From assembly GCA_039679385.1 (NCBI GenBank), contig JBDKVB010000118.1:1-49086 (forward strand): a stretch of DNA of 49,086 nucleotides. The letters run 5' to 3'. Below, in pieces: positions 169 through 18,932 of the stretch. Origin of the DNA: Armatimonadia bacterium (GTDB taxonomy: Bacteria > Armatimonadota > Zipacnadia > Zipacnadales > JABUFB01). Made by a program: the position numbers and the translations under genes. Position 1 is the first letter of the stretch. Each line of letters opens with the position of its first letter. The notes beneath the pieces were generated by a model that was not told the origin of the DNA, did no database searches, and was given only the letters and a program-made list of their open reading frames with translations.

Positions 169-3100
169 TTACTCGGCGTCGTACTCCACGACCAACTCCG
201 GCGCCAGGATGCCCTCCTTGGACACGTAGGAGGCGCCGTCCGTCGTGGTGGGCACGATCACGATGCCGAGCTCGGTTAGGCCGGTCAGGTCAACGTTCAG
301 CTTCCGCGACTCCCACACATCCCGACCGACGCGTCCGAGAACCGCGATCTCTTTCCCCGGCTTCGGTCGGTTGGCGAAGGTGATCTTGTTCTCATCCCAC
401 GGCTCCGTGACGAGGTAGATGCGTCCCGAGTCGTTGCTCTCAGCCGCCTCGGACGCCGCACCGCGCAAGCGGAAGGTGACCGACACCGGCTTGCCCGGGA
501 TGCTGATCGGGAACTTGATGTAGGTGATGTTGTAGCTCTCGTCCTCCATCACGTTGTTCCCGCCGTCCACGAGCAGGTTCGCGGCCTGCCCGAAGTTGGT
601 GCTCGGGCTGCCGGCGCTCACGTAGGCATCACCGCTGGCCTTGATCGTGATGCGCCCTCGGTTGCCCAGGTACTCCACGCGACTGCTTCCTTTGGTCTCC
701 TGGCGCCCGTCGGCCCAGACCAGTTCCGCGTTGAGTGCCTTGTCGGCCTTCGGCCCCCTACTCCCGACCTTGATCTGCACCGGGACCGTCACCGTCTGGT
801 CGCGGGCAACCTTCACCGGCACTTGCGCCGGCGTCACCGAGATGCCCTCCGACGTCGTCAGACGCAGCACACCATCGAAGTCGCGGTCCGTGCTGTTGCC
901 AAGGGTCACAACGCCCGAAGCAGTGGGCTCCAGGTCGCTGACTGTGGCGGTCGGAAGGACCATCCCCATCTGAACCACCCGCTCGCGCTCGATCTCCAGG
1001 CAGTTCAGCAACGGCGCCTGCGCGGGGCTGCCCTGAGTCTTCGGGACGAACTCGAGCGCCAGGTCACCGGAGACCTCGATGCCGCGGAACTCCTTCGTCA
1101 CGACCCGGTTCGGCCCGCCCGCCGTGGCGTAGAGGTCGAAGTTCTGCGCCACGGTCTTCCCCTGGAGCTTGATGTCAAAGACACGCTGGCCGCGCTTCGT
1201 GCTCTCCGTGTCGACAAACCCCAGGCGCACGGTGTAGACCGCCGCACCGTCCTCGGGCTTCACCAGCGTCAGATTGCACTTCGACAGGCCCGCATAGCCC
1301 GAGGAGTACACCCACGGGGAGTCGGTGCCCGAAGCCTGGAAGGTGTCCGCCGACTTGCTGAAGTAGCCGCCACCGGCGAGGCCGCTCACCGACATTCCCA
1401 GCGCCAGTTGCATCCGACCGCTCGGGCGCGGGAAGGACAGCCACAGCTTGCCCTTGTCGTCGGTCCGGTCGCCGGGGCCACCGAGGTTCACCGACAGGTG
1501 CTTCACGGGCGTCGTCGGCGCACGGTCGCTGTACATGCCCCAGGCCTTCTCCTGCTTGCGGGGTGCCAGGACGGTCGTGCAGTGGATGGAGAAGAGACAC
1601 AGGCAGCCGGAACTGGCCTCCGGAACGACCACGAGCCCGTTGGCGGGGATCATGTTGATCCAGCATCCGGGACGCTGACCAGCGAAGTGTTCGGTCCCGC
1701 GCTCGGAGGCGAGGTCGTAGTAGCCCATGCAGTAAGACCGGAACAGCAGAGCGTTCGGACACCCCGAGATCGTGCCACAGTGGTGACCCGGGCGCTCGAA
1801 CTCCCAGATCGAGGATCGCCCGGTTACCGGGTTCTCACGCATCTTCTGCTCGCCGGTGTGCAGGTCGAAGGCCCAGGGCTCGGCGACCAGCATGTCACCA
1901 ATCGCCAGCGGACGGATGCGGTACCCGATCGCCTTGCTCCACAGCAGTGAGCCGTCCTTCTGCGCCAGGACCGTTGCACGTCGGGAAGCGTACTCGCCCG
2001 AAAGGAACTGCGGCCAGTAGTGGCCATTGCTGTGAGCGCCGCAGAACACGAGGACGTCCTTCGTGGCGATCAGCGACAGGATGTGCATGCCGCAGTCGGT
2101 CAGGTCGACCGGCTTCTCCCAGGCCGTAGCGCCCGACTTTGCATCGAGGGCCACGACCACCCGCACATCAGTGTTGCCCAGCAGCTTGAGGGCGGCTGCA
2201 GAGTCAACCTTCTCCCGCGCCATGATCTCCTGGATGCGGGTCTTCAGGGCGACTTCGCGCTGCTCCGGCGTCGCTCTGTCGTCGGGGAAGAACACCCGCC
2301 CACCATCGACGGCGATGGCGTTGTTGCGGATCTTGGTGCCGCGGTACACCCAGCGGGTCTCACCGCTGTCCGCGTCGATGGCGAAGAGCGCCTTGCTGTC
2401 CAAGGTGGCACTGGCCGCAGATCCATAGAGGATACCATTGACGACAGCCACATAGGACCAGCGGTTGTTGCCTTCCTGGACTTCGCTGGGGATGGCGTAG
2501 GTCGCCACGGTGTTGCCCGTGAGGTTGTCCAGGCGCAGGCACTTGTCCTTGGTAACGACGAACAGGCTGCGGTCGTCGGCGGCCAGGTTACTGCACTCGC
2601 GGACCATGCCCACACGGTAGGCGCCGGGAATCTCCCGCTCCCAGTTCATGAGCCCGTTGTAGGCGTCGAAGCACATGATCCGGTCGATGCCCTGCAGGTA
2701 GACGCGCCCGTTGATGGACAGCGGCGCGGCGTTGCCCGAGTGACGGCTCGGGACCTTGTCCGGACCCGGCTCGCCATACCACAGGACGCCCAGCGGGCAC
2801 TCGACAGCGGTGTCAGTCGAACTGGCGGTGTTGCCCGGAGTGCCGTACTGGTGTGTCCAGGCACCGGCGCCGGGCAGCGCTCCGCGAAGGTAGCTCATCC
2901 AGACCCCGTCGGCCGCGTCGATCCGGCAGCCCGTGAACTCCGGCGCTGCAGCCCATTGCCGGAGGGCTTGCTCATCGAGCCTCGCGACGGCCGAGGAGCT
3001 CACCTTCGGCTGGCCGAAGTACACCATGCCGCCGCAGGGCTTCAGAACCCGCAGCACCTCCGCGGCGGGCACGTCGACCTTCCCCCGGAGCAGCGCGTCT

Positions 3101-4854
3101 TCGGAGACAACCAGATTGGCGAAGTAGCCGGAGTAGGGGAGAGAGGCCAGGTTGCCCTGGTCCACCGTGATGCGCGACCCGTACATCCCGGTACGGTCCA
3201 GCGTCGCACGAGCCGCGGCGACCTTCTCCGGATCCGGGTCGACAGCGTAGACGTTGAGCTCACTGCGGCGTGCGAGCTCGTAGGCAAGCCTTCCGGTGCC
3301 GCATCCAAGGACGAGGCAGTAGCCTCGGGTGATCCCGGTTGTGTCGAGGATCTTCTTGGCAGCATACCGGCAGACCCGCGTCATCTCATCCTGGGGGAAG
3401 GGCTCCGCGGTGGTTGCCGGCGCCGGGGCTACCTGCGCCGGTCGAGGTCCGACGGCGAAACACTCCACGACACCCGTGTCGGTGCTCACGAACAGCTTGC
3501 CGTCCGAGACCGCCAGACCCTTCGCCGTGCCATCCACAGAGGCTTCCCACAGCTTCGCGCCCTTCGCACGGTCCAGGGCGATCACGCTGCCGGCACCGCC
3601 GGCGATGATCCCGTCCTTGGTGACGATCATGCACTCCAGGCCCTCGCGGGCGAAGTTGAACAGTGTGCAGGCGTCGATCCCCCTCTGGTTTGCCACCAGG
3701 TCATCATCGATCTGTTTGAGCTGGGCCTGGTAGTCCTTCGGACGGGGGCTGGCCGAACTCAGGTTGCTGCGCTTGGTCTCAAGTCCCTTGCGCAGTCGAC
3801 TGAGGTCCGGGTACTTGACGCGATCCAGGGCACTGATGCCACTGTCCTTGAGCATGTAGGAGACAGCCGGTGTGACCACCAGGCGCTTGCCGGGGTACCA
3901 GGCGAACCCGACCTTCCCTGTTGCCTGTTCGATACCCGCGACCTGGGCCTCCGTGCCCGAGTAGAGCTTGTCGCCCTCCAGAAGCGCGTAGGTGCCGCCG
4001 ACGATCCCCACGGAACGCCAGTTTCCACCGGACTGGTACAGCCACTTCCCATCAGTCCGGCTGAAGGCGGCAGGCATGTTGCGACCGGCAGCCAGGAACA
4101 GAGCGGTCTTGGAGGCGAGGGCATAGCCCTGCGGGGAGAACCCATCTCGTCCGCTGGACCTGTCGGAAAGGGTGTCATTGAGCCACACTCTTGACCCGTC
4201 AGAGGCCTTCACGGCGTGCAGGTAGATGCGCTCCCCTGGGAAGATCCCGGCGGCGAAGTAGGCGATGCCGTCGTCGACAACCACACTCGTCCGAACCGGC
4301 CATAGCGAGATCATCCGGCCATGCCCGAGGACACGCTCATCAGTCGGTCCGCCCTGACAGCGCCAGACCAATCCCCCGGTCGCCGCATCCAGGCAGTACG
4401 CGCAACCATCGTCGGAGCCGAAGTAGACACGCCCCTTATCGACCATCGGGGCCAAGCGAACCGGCCCTCCGGTGAAGTAGGTCCAGCGCACCCGACCGGT
4501 GGCTGCCTCTACGCAGTACAGCTTGTTGTCCGCAGAGGAGCCGAAGTAGAGCAGTCCGTCCGCCACTGCCACATGGAAGGCGTCGTCAAACCTGAGGCGA
4601 GGCCGTTCGAGCATGCCCTCGAGGGGCTCATGATGTGGGTCTGCCCAGGCGTTCTGTGGCGGGACCGGCGACTTGAAGGTCCAGTGCTCCTGCAGCGGCC
4701 ATGTCAGGGCTTCCTCCGACACGCCGCTGCGTGCAAGGTCGCGCATGTAGGTGGGCCAGTTCTCTGCACAGCCACAGGCTGTGAGCAGGATGGCTGCGCA
4801 GACGCACAGCACAGACACCAGCGGGAGTCGTCCTTGATAGGTGGTCCTTCTCAT
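169..4854 (-). CDS. PQQ-type propeller lipoprotein with an internal methyltransferase-like domain
   Basis: 1561 aa. Residues 1-27 form a lipoprotein signal ending in the lipobox LTAC, so the protein should be lipid-anchored outside the cytoplasm. Residues about 90-470 hold PQQ/BamB-like propeller strands (LYFGSSADNKLYCVEAATGRVRW, GRVYFGSDDG). Residues about 490-660 read as a class I SAM-methyltransferase fold: motif I VLGCGTGRLA (515-524), the acidic strand end VYAVDPDPE (535-543), then VLKPCGGMVYF. A second propeller region follows (about 665-1100), then a malectin-like sandwich, a NEW3-like Ig domain, and a C-terminal DNRLRE-like domain (about 1420-1560, with DAYVSAGSPSTNFG). The start is supported by GGAGG nine bases upstream. 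Secreted propeller proteins are common in this kind of genome. A Rossmann methyltransferase inside one is odd, because SAM is not expected outside the cytoplasm. The domain may be a degenerate binding fold. The function is unknown. Confidence 0.85.
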   Translation of the reverse strand: MRRTTYQGRLPLVSVLCVCAAILLTACGCAENWPTYMRDLARSGVSEEALTWPLQEHWTFKSPVPPQNAWADPHHEPLEGMLERPRLRFDDAFHVAVADGLLYFGSSADNKLYCVEAATGRVRWTYFTGGPVRLAPMVDKGRVYFGSDDGCAYCLDAATGGLVWRCQGGPTDERVLGHGRMISLWPVRTSVVVDDGIAYFAAGIFPGERIYLHAVKASDGSRVWLNDTLSDRSSGRDGFSPQGYALASKTALFLAAGRNMPAAFSRTDGKWLYQSGGNWRSVGIVGGTYALLEGDKLYSGTEAQVAGIEQATGKVGFAWYPGKRLVVTPAVSYMLKDSGISALDRVKYPDLSRLRKGLETKRSNLSSASPRPKDYQAQLKQIDDDLVANQRGIDACTLFNFAREGLECMIVTKDGIIAGGAGSVIALDRAKGAKLWEASVDGTAKGLAVSDGKLFVSTDTGVVECFAVGPRPAQVAPAPATTAEPFPQDEMTRVCRYAAKKILDTTGITRGYCLVLGCGTGRLAYELARRSELNVYAVDPDPEKVAAARATLDRTGMYGSRITVDQGNLASLPYSGYFANLVVSEDALLRGKVDVPAAEVLRVLKPCGGMVYFGQPKVSSSAVARLDEQALRQWAAAPEFTGCRIDAADGVWMSYLRGALPGAGAWTHQYGTPGNTASSTDTAVECPLGVLWYGEPGPDKVPSRHSGNAAPLSINGRVYLQGIDRIMCFDAYNGLMNWEREIPGAYRVGMVRECSNLAADDRSLFVVTKDKCLRLDNLTGNTVATYAIPSEVQEGNNRWSYVAVVNGILYGSAASATLDSKALFAIDADSGETRWVYRGTKIRNNAIAVDGGRVFFPDDRATPEQREVALKTRIQEIMAREKVDSAAALKLLGNTDVRVVVALDAKSGATAWEKPVDLTDCGMHILSLIATKDVLVFCGAHSNGHYWPQFLSGEYASRRATVLAQKDGSLLWSKAIGYRIRPLAIGDMLVAEPWAFDLHTGEQKMRENPVTGRSSIWEFERPGHHCGTISGCPNALLFRSYCMGYYDLASERGTEHFAGQRPGCWINMIPANGLVVVPEASSGCLCLFSIHCTTVLAPRKQEKAWGMYSDRAPTTPVKHLSVNLGGPGDRTDDKGKLWLSFPRPSGRMQLALGMSVSGLAGGGYFSKSADTFQASGTDSPWVYSSGYAGLSKCNLTLVKPEDGAAVYTVRLGFVDTESTKRGQRVFDIKLQGKTVAQNFDLYATAGGPNRVVTKEFRGIEVSGDLALEFVPKTQGSPAQAPLLNCLEIERERVVQMGMVLPTATVSDLEPTASGVVTLGNSTDRDFDGVLRLTTSEGISVTPAQVPVKVARDQTVTVPVQIKVGSRGPKADKALNAELVWADGRQETKGSSRVEYLGNRGRITIKASGDAYVSAGSPSTNFGQAANLLVDGGNNVMEDESYNITYIKFPISIPGKPVSVTFRLRGAASEAAESNDSGRIYLVTEPWDENKITFANRPKPGKEIAVLGRVGRDVWESRKLNVDLTGLTELGIVIVPTTTDGASYVSKEGILAPELVVEYDAE

Positions 4855-4925: not shown

Positions 4926-4991
4926 GTCCTCACAACTTGTGAAACCTAATGACACAATTCCCGGGGTCGTCTTCCGGGTATGGAGTCGGCC

Positions 4992-6194
4992 ATGACGCTG
5001 CGTCCCGCTCTCCGCCTGCTCGCCCTACTCGCCGCGCCCTTACTTCTCTCTTCACTTCCCTCCGCGGTGACCGCGTGTCCCTATGACATCCGCGACGCGG
5101 GCTTCATTGTCCGCGACCCGTCTCCCTACAGGCTAGTATTCTATGTTAACGATACAACGCCCTCCCGGGAAAAGCTGCCCGTGTGGGTAGATTCTGCTGC
5201 CCGCAGTGAACTGGGCGAGGCCAACGTGGTTGCTGAGGTCGCCAACCTTGCACGCCTCGACAAGACAGACCCTCTGCGGGTTCACTTCGAGAGGCTCGCA
5301 CCCCAGAAGCTTCCCGCACCCGTCCTGATCTCTCCTCGCAACCAGGCCTTCCTCGTGCCTGGCTTCGACACGACCCAGATCACTGAGCAATCGGTGACGG
5401 ACTTCGTGCGCAGCGTCGTCCGCTCTCCAGTGCGAGAGCAACTCGCGCAGCACTTGGTCGACGCCTGGTGTACCATCCTCATCCTGCCCGGTGCTGACGC
5501 CGTCGAGAACCAGCGGGTGACGAAGGCCGTTGCCGAGGCGCGCAAGGCAATCGTGGGCACCACGACGCCCATGGGCACACAGATCCGGGTGCAGCCGTGG
5601 GTGATCACCACCTACGCCGGAGACCCCGTGGAGTCCGTCGTGCGGTGGTCCCTGGGGATGACCGACAAGGAGCCGCCGCTGCCTGAGGTCGCGGTCGTCT
5701 GGGGAATGGCCCGGCGCATCGGACCGGTCCTCAAGGGAGATCAGGTCAGCGCTTCCTCCGTGGGGAACCTCCTGCGTCTGCTGGGCGAGAACTGCACTTG
5801 TACTTCCGACCCCGCCTATCTGATCGGGCCGTCCGTTCCCTTTGTGTGGGACGAGAAGCTTCGTCAGGCCACGCGGGACGCGCTAGGTTTCGATCCCGAT
5901 AGCCCGCAGGCCCGCAGTACCCTGTCCGGTGTATGGACCACCCTTGAGCCCGGTGCCGAACCGAATGAGAACGTTTTGCCAAATCCCGGAGGAGGATACA
6001 TTGAGTTCCCCGCGGAACCGGGGCAGGGCGAGGGCGCACCCGAGGGCGATGACCCGGACGCAGTTGGTGCCGCGCCCACGTCGTGGGAGAACCGAGGCCT
6101 GAAGGTAGCAGCCATCACCGCTGTCGGCCTCGGCGGGGCAGCCGGCGGCGGCGGTGCTCTCGTGTGGTGGCTGCGTCGCAAGCGGTGCGTCTGA
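4992..6194 (+). CDS. Exported Cys-X-Cys protein with C-terminal membrane anchor, unknown function
   Basis: 400 aa from the ATG at 4992, chosen because GGAG lies six bases upstream. The in-frame ATG at 4980 has no such site. An N-terminal signal sequence ends at AVTAC, directly before CPYD (Cys29); VTAC could also act as a lipobox. Two further cysteines form Cys-X-Cys (Cys268/270, in GENCTCTSDP). A Pro/Gly/Glu-rich linker (about 320-360) leads to a C-terminal TM helix followed by WWLRRKR, so the body should face outside with a short basic tail inside. I do not recognise a catalytic domain. Conserved cysteines next to an ABC exporter suggest redox, metal or thiol-linked cargo handling, but this is inference. 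It is the first gene of a tight operon, 27 bases before the permease gene. Confidence 0.75.
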   Translation: MTLRPALRLLALLAAPLLLSSLPSAVTACPYDIRDAGFIVRDPSPYRLVFYVNDTTPSREKLPVWVDSAARSELGEANVVAEVANLARLDKTDPLRVHFERLAPQKLPAPVLISPRNQAFLVPGFDTTQITEQSVTDFVRSVVRSPVREQLAQHLVDAWCTILILPGADAVENQRVTKAVAEARKAIVGTTTPMGTQIRVQPWVITTYAGDPVESVVRWSLGMTDKEPPLPEVAVVWGMARRIGPVLKGDQVSASSVGNLLRLLGENCTCTSDPAYLIGPSVPFVWDEKLRQATRDALGFDPDSPQARSTLSGVWTTLEPGAEPNENVLPNPGGGYIEFPAEPGQGEGAPEGDDPDAVGAAPTSWENRGLKVAAITAVGLGGAAGGGGALVWWLRRKRCV

Positions 6195-6221: not shown

Positions 6222-7364
6222 ATGTCCGCGCTCAAAGTCATGTTCAGTGAGATCCGCCATCGTCTGTTGAGTTTCCTTGTGGGCTTGCTCGCCGTCATCG
6301 GCGCAGTAACGCTCTTCGTCTCCCTGGTCACCATGGGCCGTGCCTCCAACACCGAGACGCAGCGCCTGATGCGTAACCTCGGCTTCAATCTCCTCATCGT
6401 CCCCGCCGGAACCGACCTCGCCGACTTCTGGGCCACGGACTTCGTCAAGGGTGACATGCCGGAGGAGTACGTCAAGCGCCTCGCACGTACCCACGGCATC
6501 ATGGCAGACCACTACGTCGCCACCCTCGAGAAGAAGATCGAGTGGCGCGGACGTGAGGTTCTGCTCACAGGTCTCCTGCCCGAGGTCCACGCCATCGACG
6601 CGCCTGCCACCAAAGCGCCAATGGGCTTCCAGATCAAGCCTGGAAGTTGTCTGGTGGGGTCTGCCCTGGCCAGATCGCTCAAGCTAGAATCTGGACAGAC
6701 CCTTGAGGTCCTCGGCAAGAAGCTGAAGGTCACCGAGCGCCTCGCAGAGGACGGCAGCAAGCAGGACATCCGCCTCTACGCCAACCTCCGCGACGTCCAG
6801 TCAATGCTCAAGATGCCCGACCGCATCAACCAGATTCAGGCCCTTGGGTGTCTGTGTGCCGGAGCGACCCTTGACGACCTGCGCAAGCAGATGGGAGCCG
6901 TGCTCCCGGACTCCTACGTCGCCGAGATCCGTTCCATCGCCACCGCAAGGTCGCAGACACGGAAGATGGTGGAGGAGCACGTCGGGTTCATCATGGCAGC
7001 CGCCCTGGTCGTCTGCGCGGTGTGGGTCGGACTGCTCTCGCTGCTCAACGTCAGGGACCGGCACCAGGAGATCGGCATCCTGCGTGCCCTCGGTTTTGGC
7101 TCTGGCCGGATCATGGCTCTCTTCCTTGGCCGGACCGTTCTGATGGGCGTGATTGGTGCCGCGATAGGATTCCTGATCGGGACGGGGCTGGCGCTGGAGT
7201 ACGGGCCTGACATCTTCAAGTTCACTTTCGCCAAGGTCAAGCCAGCCTACGACTTGCTGGTTTCTTCGCTGGTGGCTGCCAGTGTTATCTCCGCCCTGGC
7301 CGGGTTCCTCCCCGCCATGGTTGCCGTGACCCAGGATCCTGCAGTCACCCTTCTGGAGGAGTAA
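6222..7364 (+). CDS. FtsX/MacB-like ABC transporter permease
   Basis: 380 aa with the FtsX/LolC/MacB layout: one TM helix near the N-terminus (about 15-37), an extracytoplasmic domain of roughly 210 residues, then three TM helices (about 254-275, 300-325, 345-370). The NVRDRHQEIGILRALGFG segment after the second helix is the typical FtsX-family cytoplasmic coupling loop. Proteins of this family use ATP hydrolysis to move lipoproteins, lipids or peptides mechanically, or to control envelope enzymes, rather than forming a simple pore. It stops two bases before the ATPase gene and surely works with it. The periplasmic domain probably meets the Cys-X-Cys protein encoded upstream. Confidence 0.88.
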   Translation: MSALKVMFSEIRHRLLSFLVGLLAVIGAVTLFVSLVTMGRASNTETQRLMRNLGFNLLIVPAGTDLADFWATDFVKGDMPEEYVKRLARTHGIMADHYVATLEKKIEWRGREVLLTGLLPEVHAIDAPATKAPMGFQIKPGSCLVGSALARSLKLESGQTLEVLGKKLKVTERLAEDGSKQDIRLYANLRDVQSMLKMPDRINQIQALGCLCAGATLDDLRKQMGAVLPDSYVAEIRSIATARSQTRKMVEEHVGFIMAAALVVCAVWVGLLSLLNVRDRHQEIGILRALGFGSGRIMALFLGRTVLMGVIGAAIGFLIGTGLALEYGPDIFKFTFAKVKPAYDLLVSSLVAASVISALAGFLPAMVAVTQDPAVTLLEE

Positions 7365-7366
7365 GT

Positions 7367-8053
7367 GTGGTTCGTCTGGAGGGCATTACCAAGCGTTACC
7401 GTTCCCACCGAGGCGAGGTTCGAGCCCTGTCAGAGGTCTCCCTGGAGGTCACCCCGGGGGAGTTCGTCGCAGTTCGAGGTCCGAGCGGCAGCGGCAAGTC
7501 TACCTTGCTGCTGACCATCGGTGGGATGATCCGCCCCACAAGCGGCACCGTCAGTGTCAACGGGACGAACCTGTATTCCCTCAGCGCCCAACAACGCGCC
7601 GGCTTCCGCGCAGCGCATGTCGGGTTTGTGTTCCAGATGTTCCACCTGGTTCCTTACCTGACGGTGCTGGAGAACGTGCTCTTGCCCTCGTCGCTGGTTG
7701 CGCAGCCGGGGGCTCGCGACCGGGCGGCATCCTTGCTTGAGCAGTTTGGCATGGGCGCCCGGCTGGAACACCGGCCTTCGGAACTGAGCACAGGTGAGCG
7801 CCAGCGCACAGCCATTGCGCGAGCCCTCATCAACAAGCCGGAGCTGGTTCTTGCCGACGAGCCAACGGGGAACCTGGATCCGGACACCGGCCGTCAGATT
7901 CTGCAGTACCTGTCCGAGTTCCACCGGGGCGGGGGCACGGTTCTCGTGGTCACTCACGAACCGTGGGTCGAGGAGTACGCACAACGGACGCTTATCTTGC
8001 GCGAAGGCAGACTCGCCGAGGCCGTACCTGAACTGAGGTCAGCTAATGCGTAA
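7367..8053 (+). CDS. LolD/MacB-like ABC transporter ATP-binding protein
   Basis: 228 aa, complete nucleotide-binding domain: Walker [10 protein letters not shown] (38-46), Q-loop Gln90, signature LSTGE (140-144), Walker B LVLADEP (160-166) and H-loop His197. The signature reads LSTGE rather than LSGGQ, a variant seen in LolD/MacB-type proteins. The start is GTG with GGAGGA six bases upstream, two bases after the permease stop, which implies translational coupling. It energises the permease at 6222-7364. Its last 8 bases overlap the pseudopilin gene, so the transporter and pseudopilin are read from one message. Confidence 0.92.
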
Positions 8054-17783: not shown

Positions 17784-18932
17784 TCAGTAGAGGCCCTCGG
17801 TGGAGGCGACGTCGTACAGCACCTGCAGATTCTCCGGCGGCACTCTCGGGGCCACGGAGCAGGCCGAGCTGAGGATGTAGCCGCCACCCGCCGCGGCCGC
17901 CTGGATGCGGCTCAGGGCACTGCGGCGAACCTCCTCCGGCGTCCCACGCAGGAGCACGTTCACCGAGTCGATGTTGCCCTTCAGGAAGAGCTTGCCACCA
18001 ACACGGGCCTTAGCATCCGCCAGGTCCGTATCACCCAGAGGCGGGGGATCCATGGTGTCGATCCCGTCGATCCCGGTGGCGGCCATGAACTCCAGACGGT
18101 CTCCGATGGCCCCGCAGGTGTGGGTGTAGGCCACGGTGCCTGCGCGGTGGATCGCAGCAGCGACCTCGTCCTCGTAGGGCAGCACGAACTCCTCGTACAT
18201 GGCCCGAGAGATGAACCCGCCTCCGGCGAAGGCCGAGGAGATCAGCACCGCATCGACGCCGCGGGAAGCCTGACGTGTGGCAAGATCGGCGGCTCCCCGG
18301 GCAAACTGCGCGAGGATCGCCTTGCACTTCGCCGGCTGTTCCAGCAGCGCCATCAGGCCCTGCTCATACCCCAGCCGCTCCATGAGTTGCGTGAAGGGGG
18401 AGAAGACCTCGCCATGGACCGAGAGCTCACCGGCCACGGTCTCAACCACGCGGTCAATCAGCGCGAACAGGTACTCCGGGAAGTAGTCGTCGCCTCGCTC
18501 GAAGTCATAGTGGAAGGGGTACTTGAGCCCGCCGAGGGTGTGCGGATCCTCGTAGTACAGCAGTCCGGGGTCGATCTCCTCCAGGCTCGGCTGCTCGCCC
18601 GACACCTGCGTTGGCAGGTCGGCTACCGGACACTTGCACTCACTGCCATCCCGGTAGTGGATCACCTGGCCCGTCGGAATCCGCTCGATGCTCTCCACAT
18701 AGGCCGCAGCGTCGGGCGTGCGTCCCGGCAGGTTCACCAGGATGCCGTCGAAGTGATAGCGCCAGGCCAGTTCCACATAGGCCTTGGCGATGAGCTCGTT
18801 GCTCAGCCAGTACTCGGCCGGGTCGAGGTCGAGGTTCACCAGGTAGTGGCCAATGCTAAGCTGGCACATCACCGGCACCCGGTCGGGCTGCTGCCGACGC
18901 AGGGCAGTCACAACTCGTTCTCGGGACGTCAT
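17784..18932 (-). CDS. UroD-family protein, MtaA-like methyltransferase type
   Basis: 382 aa, typical of the uroporphyrinogen-decarboxylase superfamily: it starts MTSRERVVTALRRQQPDRVP and continues through a TIM barrel. It carries THTCG and, later, SSACSVAP. This His-X-Cys and Cys pattern matches the zinc site of corrinoid:coenzyme-M-type methyltransferases (MtaA/CmuA) rather than heme-pathway HemE. Glycan-degrading bacteria carry many such paralogues of unknown substrate. AGGGAAGG lies seven bases before the ATG. The amidohydrolase gene upstream ends only 23 bases away, so the two are probably one transcript. I see no corrinoid protein in the window. Confidence 0.87.
   Translation of the reverse strand: MTSRERVVTALRRQQPDRVPVMCQLSIGHYLVNLDLDPAEYWLSNELIAKAYVELAWRYHFDGILVNLPGRTPDAAAYVESIERIPTGQVIHYRDGSECKCPVADLPTQVSGEQPSLEEIDPGLLYYEDPHTLGGLKYPFHYDFERGDDYFPEYLFALIDRVVETVAGELSVHGEVFSPFTQLMERLGYEQGLMALLEQPAKCKAILAQFARGAADLATRQASRGVDAVLISSAFAGGGFISRAMYEEFVLPYEDEVAAAIHRAGTVAYTHTCGAIGDRLEFMAATGIDGIDTMDPPPLGDTDLADAKARVGGKLFLKGNIDSVNVLLRGTPEEVRRSALSRIQAAAAGGGYILSSACSVAPRVPPENLQVLYDVASTEGLY

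Follow-up and report, generated by a model that had tools for sequence, protein, structure and literature searches.

The window (the entire stretch of 49,086 nucleotides that was analyzed) encodes, in a single intact ORF on the minus strand (169 to 4854; 1561 aa; free of internal stops), a putatively exported protein in which a domain of the class I methyltransferase fold (MT domain) appears to have been captured between two propellers of the BamB type. With middling confidence, we propose that the MT domain of this propeller-fused lineage is a re-used Rossmann fold in an envelope or surface protein that probably acts together with an ABC transporter and a second exported protein, here called A. 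At the sequence level, this proposal builds on the fold itself, the signal peptides, a conserved architecture, a gene association, and a shift of constraint within the domain.

A methyltransferase fold between two propellers

The window protein starts with a predicted signal peptide (residues 1 to 30; 4765 to 4854), followed by a first propeller of the BamB/PQQ_2 type (residues 31 to 482; 3409 to 4764), the MT domain (residues 483 to 668; 2851 to 3408), a second propeller (residues 669 to 1145; 1420 to 2850), a malectin domain (residues 1169 to 1263; 1066 to 1350), and a CBM96/DNRLRE domain (residues 1403 to 1557; 184 to 648), all on the minus strand. The two C-terminal domains, which the sequence-only reading had named, scored above the cut-offs of Pfam (malectin, 43.8 bits versus a gathering score of 23; CBM96, 61.5 versus 26) and NCBIfam (DNRLRE, 44.8 versus 34), and they may bind a glycan or the surface; a NEW3-like domain, also claimed there, found no support, the sole match being FixG_C, whose cut-off of 25.6 bits was missed at 13.5. 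The description as a PQQ propeller held as far as the fold is concerned, with a PQQ_2 match of 115 bits (Pfam, above the gathering score), but the cut-offs of the curated quinoprotein dehydrogenase models of NCBIfam were missed by the window protein (TIGR03075, 44 versus 480 bits), and the nearest fold was BamB, which was found by Foldseek for propeller 1 and as the first match of the full core model (1115 residues, pLDDT 77). Unlike BamB, the window protein has two propellers per chain with the MT domain between them and malectin and CBM96 at the C terminus; the likeness implies neither membership in BAM nor binding of PQQ.

The methyltransferase-like domain that had been noticed between the propellers proved to be a true seven-stranded Rossmann methyltransferase fold. 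Residues 514 to 608 matched Methyltransf_25 of Pfam (46.1 bits versus a gathering score of 27), and the AlphaFold2 model of residues 483 to 668 (pLDDT 91, pTM 0.90) has the full set of strands from β1 to β7. Its best structural match in the PDB was 3dlc (MMP1179), with a Z score of 18.2 across 172 residues; all 1000 of the 1000 re-aligned PDB chains reached a Z score of at least 8, and the matches listed were methyltransferases or methyltransferase-fold proteins throughout. The profile of the MT family likewise had 3dlc as its top PDB match (E = 2e-17), and MMP1179-like methyltransferases are, therefore, the nearest solved relatives of the window domain by both sequence and fold. In contrast to the exported, propeller-fused domain of the window, 3dlc is a free-standing protein of ~220 aa whose structure was determined with SAM (PMC5289526), and the window domain lacks the SRGSxFFW motif after β4 and the Asp after β3. 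The segment after β4 reads VVSEDALLRG in the window copy and SRGSIFFW, or a close variant of it, in an exported sister group. The corrinoid-associated CpaM family was considered and rejected, as the best match of its model reached 21.6 bits against a cut-off of 180 (60.7 versus 180 bits in a relative).

The architecture recurs in several phyla

A search for the same architecture elsewhere was successful. In the window's own genome (5.6 Mb, 96.6% complete, a draft of 184 contigs), paralogues built from these parts are located on contigs C177, C101, and C66, and several copies per genome are common in the phylum. Nine public records with the same domain order come from Armatimonadota/Zipacnadia, Pirellulaceae, other Planctomycetales, Verrucomicrobiota, Lentisphaerae, and Calditrichaceae; in Verrucomicrobiota, Lentisphaerae, and Calditrichota, the architecture is encoded by MAGs. 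Among the sampled genomes of Planctomycetota, 36 of 199 had a match at E ≤ 1e-15, with ORFs of nearly always 700 to 1900 aa and several genomes in a single contig, such as those behind L175 to L177 and L179 to L181; at E ≤ 1e-20, matches were obtained in 8 of 145 genomes of the phylum of the Verrucomicrobiota locus and in 1 of 40 of the phylum of the Calditrichaceae locus. A draft assembly in 184 contigs could, in principle, have merged two genes by error or chance, one of the two refutations proposed in the sequence-only reading. However, the gene is one continuous frame, and its domain order is shared by independent records and by single-contig genomes of Planctomycetota, which excludes an assembly error for all practical purposes. 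In the part of the literature covered, we found no description of exported, periplasmic, extracellular, or surface methyltransferases, of fusions of a PQQ propeller with a methyltransferase, or of the propeller-fused MT family as such; a paper on Zipacnadia (PMC10290634) mentions neither a methyltransferase nor a propeller.

Three variants of the architecture were distinguished: P, with signal peptide, propeller 1, MT domain, propeller 2, and often an added malectin; P2, with LamG or other modules before the MT domain and propeller 2; and M, with signal peptide, MT domain, propeller 2, and propeller 1. In all three, and in every relative seen, propeller 2 follows the MT domain directly, whereas propeller 1 stands before it, after it, or in a separate gene, and therefore, the MT domain and propeller 2 look like one unit. 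The order of MT domain, propeller 2, and propeller 1 in L108 to L118 (e.g., L108:821-4825) is a circular permutation of the window core, and L108 ends with LamG. A paralogue in the window's own genome (L124, G000:C66:15000-28000) is split into two genes, one for the MT domain with propeller 2 and one for propeller 1 only, the latter followed in the same frame by a phosphoesterase-like ORF.

A tree of 129 MT domains, calculated with a quick method and containing many weak forks, places the propeller-fused copies of all phyla in a single clade (98% SH-aLRT) and unites the exported propeller-less domains with 3dlc in a second (93% SH-aLRT). According to this tree, the exported state is common to two clades, with cytoplasmic relatives near the second, propeller-less one. 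The nearest relatives outside the propeller clade are exported as well, be it as free-standing proteins of ~240 aa, as a tandem MT protein, as fusions to SBP_bac_11, or as a fusion to ankyrin repeats. The fusions to SBP_bac_11, a periplasmic solute-binding domain, have an intact SAM pocket (L088, L090, L091:284-1687, L092, and L105:1418-2872), and L088 and L090 each have a pair of them next to each other. L106:667-2532 encodes an exported protein with ankyrin repeats before the MT domain, and L089:1684-3030 encodes an exported tandem protein in which the pocket of the second MT domain is degenerate.

Export across the membrane

By a simple rule that accepts M or V starts and is a heuristic rather than SignalP, a signal peptide was called in 77 of the 90 propeller-fused ORFs that could accommodate one and in all 23 exported relatives without propellers, compared to 1 of 12 cytoplasmic methyltransferases and neither of two signal-less MMP1179-like proteins of Planctomycetota (L195, L196). 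The claim of an exported protein is thus well founded, and the possibility that homologues are cytoplasmic and lack a signal did not materialize. Matters are different for the proposed lipoprotein character: the window copy does have LTAC/G at the end of its signal peptide, which could be a lipobox, but no more than 4 of the 117 family members have a lipobox-like site, and relatives have a signal-peptidase-I-type site in the same place (A/ENWPTY, AEDWPTY, etc.). A family of lipoproteins can, therefore, be dismissed. None of the 117 members has a Tat-like signal, which rules out Tat export of a cofactor-loaded domain; the protein should cross the membrane unfolded and cofactor-free, and the window protein would be exported by Sec to the envelope or the surface.

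It could be argued that the protein is truly cytoplasmic, or that its signal is unused, and that the domain is an ordinary methyltransferase, as motif I is intact in the window copy and the related family has signal-less cytoplasmic members (MMP1179, L195, and L196). We regard this as quite improbable in view of the contrast in signal peptides between both exported groups and the cytoplasmic controls and of fusion partners such as malectin, CBM96, and solute-binding domains.

The SAM pocket and a shift of constraint

The motif I that had been read from the sequence, VLGCGTGRLA, is present at residues 515 to 524 (3283 to 3312, minus strand), with the GxGxG (GCGTG, residues 517 to 521) contributing glycines 517, 519, and 521; the motif is variable within the propeller-fused clade. 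Strand β2 ends with Asp539 (3238 to 3240, minus strand), and an acidic residue in this position is the ribose-binding mark of such methyltransferases (PMC5289526). In the window copy, Asn568 (3151 to 3153, minus strand) takes the place of the Asp after β3 that is invariant in the exported sister group. An Asp in this position is the usual adenine-side residue of class I methyltransferases, although it varies between families. The question of whether the acidic residue is conserved had a divided answer: it is retained in most propeller-fused relatives and lost in 18 of 93, and over the whole tree it changed at least 15 times. In 69 of the 93 copies, the window's among them, the β2 acid is kept together with two or all three of the motif I glycines. 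In the exported propeller-less group (A4, n = 21 aligned), the first and third Gly of motif I, the Asp of β2, the Asp of β3, and the Ser-Arg after β4 are invariant.

The positions of the SAM core were not conserved beyond the rest of the domain in P (p = 0.13) or M (p = 0.54); they were more conserved in the cytoplasmic controls (p < 5e-5) and in the exported propeller-less group (p = 0.011). Since the groups differ in size, sites were also compared within each group. In the propeller-fused copies, conservation was higher at the edge of the sheet opposite the SAM site, as judged by JSD at 30 sites per edge with strand ends from DSSP, a comparison that measures conservation and not contact: the values for the SAM edge and the opposite edge were 0.365 and 0.571 in the P clade (p = 1.4e-5) and 0.441 and 0.527 in the M clade (p = 0.019). 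Because the pattern was first seen by eye and its definition then fixed by rule, inspection has some influence on these p-values, and the sites, coming from related sequences, are not independent of each other. The exported propeller-less group had no such bias (0.604 at the SAM edge, 0.566 at the opposite edge). Conserved residues of the edge are Y512, C513, R549, Y558, G559, R561, and Y577, all of which except R561 are specific to the P clade. The dN/dS of the MT domain in close pairs is 0.07 to 0.35; most pairs have a similar value for the remainder of the protein, and one, L175/L176, has a lower one. The domain is thus not decaying to junk, and pseudogene decay is ruled out.

Three options had been put forward for the domain: a re-used fold, a binder of another nucleoside, or an unusual localization. 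Repeated loss of the pocket, together with the constraint at the sheet edge that faces away from the SAM site, makes the re-used fold the best supported option for the propeller-fused lineage. The domain would then most likely no longer be a methyltransferase, and the conserved edge would pack on propeller 2 and probably also on a partner. Counting against the re-used fold, 69 of 93 copies with acid and glycines are more than a pure scaffold needs. With its Gly loop and β2 Asp intact, the window copy may still bind an adenosyl ligand, and the same residual ligand binding may persist in other individual copies.

A more far-reaching alternative is a working extracytoplasmic domain that binds SAM, SAH, or an adenosyl compound, either to methylate envelope or extracellular molecules or to sense a nucleoside. 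It draws on the pocket elements kept in the window and in most propeller-fused copies and, above all, on the 21 MT domains of the sister group, whose pocket is invariant, whose ORFs all have signal peptides, and whose nearest structure was solved with bound SAM. On the other hand, the pocket was lost repeatedly in the propeller-fused clade, the β3 Asp is absent from the window, and transport without Tat should deliver the protein empty. Furthermore, no supply of SAM outside the cytoplasm is known. We consider this alternative rather doubtful for the window protein and return to the re-used fold as the preferred reading, while noting that the sister group, which has kept the full SAM pocket, may bind SAM outside the cytoplasm.

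An ABC transporter as a recurrent neighbor

Divergent from the MT gene, three genes follow on the plus strand. Gene A (4980 to 6194) codes for a predicted exported protein with a C-terminal membrane anchor that matched no family in Pfam; B (6222 to 7364) is an FtsX/MacB-type ABC permease by synteny and by its match to FtsX (Pfam, 51.6 bits), although it stayed below the cut-off of MacB_PCD (23.0 versus 27); and C (7367 to 8053) is an ABC transporter ATPase by sequence and synteny. The A family has an invariant CxC pattern, with C33 at the mature start (CTCTS). B with its FtsX domain and C as ATPase resemble the ABC transporters of the MacB/FtsX family, but the partners differ from those of known systems, being a propeller-MT protein and the membrane-anchored A, for which Pfam has no family; we found no description of this pairing in the part of the literature covered.

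Of 94 propeller-MT genes, many of which are on cut contigs, 21 have a homologue of B or C no farther than 4.5 kb away, and B is near 5 of the 27 that are flanked by 2.5 kb of DNA or more on each side. A reverse search for B in 41 genomes of the order gave 23 places, 16 of them within ~5 kb of an MT gene as counted by hand. Hence, the transporter usually adjoins an MT gene, yet many MT genes are without a transporter. A turned up in 12 genomes and, again by hand count, mostly shared its contig with an MT gene. In Planctomycetota, A, B, C, and the MT gene lie in this order on one strand in L178 and L192, and C overlaps the MT ORF in L186. We infer that the window protein probably works with the MacB/FtsX-type transporter and A in envelope transport or assembly; a re-used fold seated on propeller 2 and, in part, acting with a MacB-like transporter in the envelope would explain the shift of constraint, the pocket losses, and the export.

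Implications for methyltransferase folds outside the cytoplasm

As their cofactor is cytoplasmic, class I methyltransferases are regarded as cytoplasmic, too. The MT domains described here comprise free-standing, tandem, solute-binding-protein-fused, ankyrin-repeat-fused, and propeller-fused exported forms. This family has repeatedly been recombined with modules of the envelope, and in one of its branches, selective constraint has shifted to the opposite side of the fold. It is, therefore, a natural test case for a cofactor enzyme turning into a structural module. The most surprising point concerns the exported propeller-less group, for which extracytoplasmic binding of SAM or an adenosyl compound is the natural reading of the invariant pocket, and whose intact pocket makes the question directly testable. 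It is imaginable, although we put this forward only tentatively, that the multiphylum radiation as a whole binds SAM or an adenosyl relative and performs methylation or senses nucleosides outside the cytoplasm, and that a dedicated transporter of the MacB type handles the propeller-fused forms. In any case, the recurrent ABC transporter offers a handle on function, and the labels "methyltransferase" and "PQQ enzyme" that annotation pipelines give to such genes may each mislead.

One free-standing exported MT gene of the window's own genome (L101, at L128:8634-9437, G000:C157) lies directly upstream of, and on the same strand as, genes for a FabA-like protein (FabZ), LpxA, and LpxB, a gene run hinting at a link to lipid A; the lpxA/fabZ neighborhood was absent beside the other free-standing exported MT genes within the flanks examined. 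Near the same gene, L128:12904-14520 encodes a methyltransferase domain before a URO-D domain and is 30% similar to positions 17784 to 18932 of the window.
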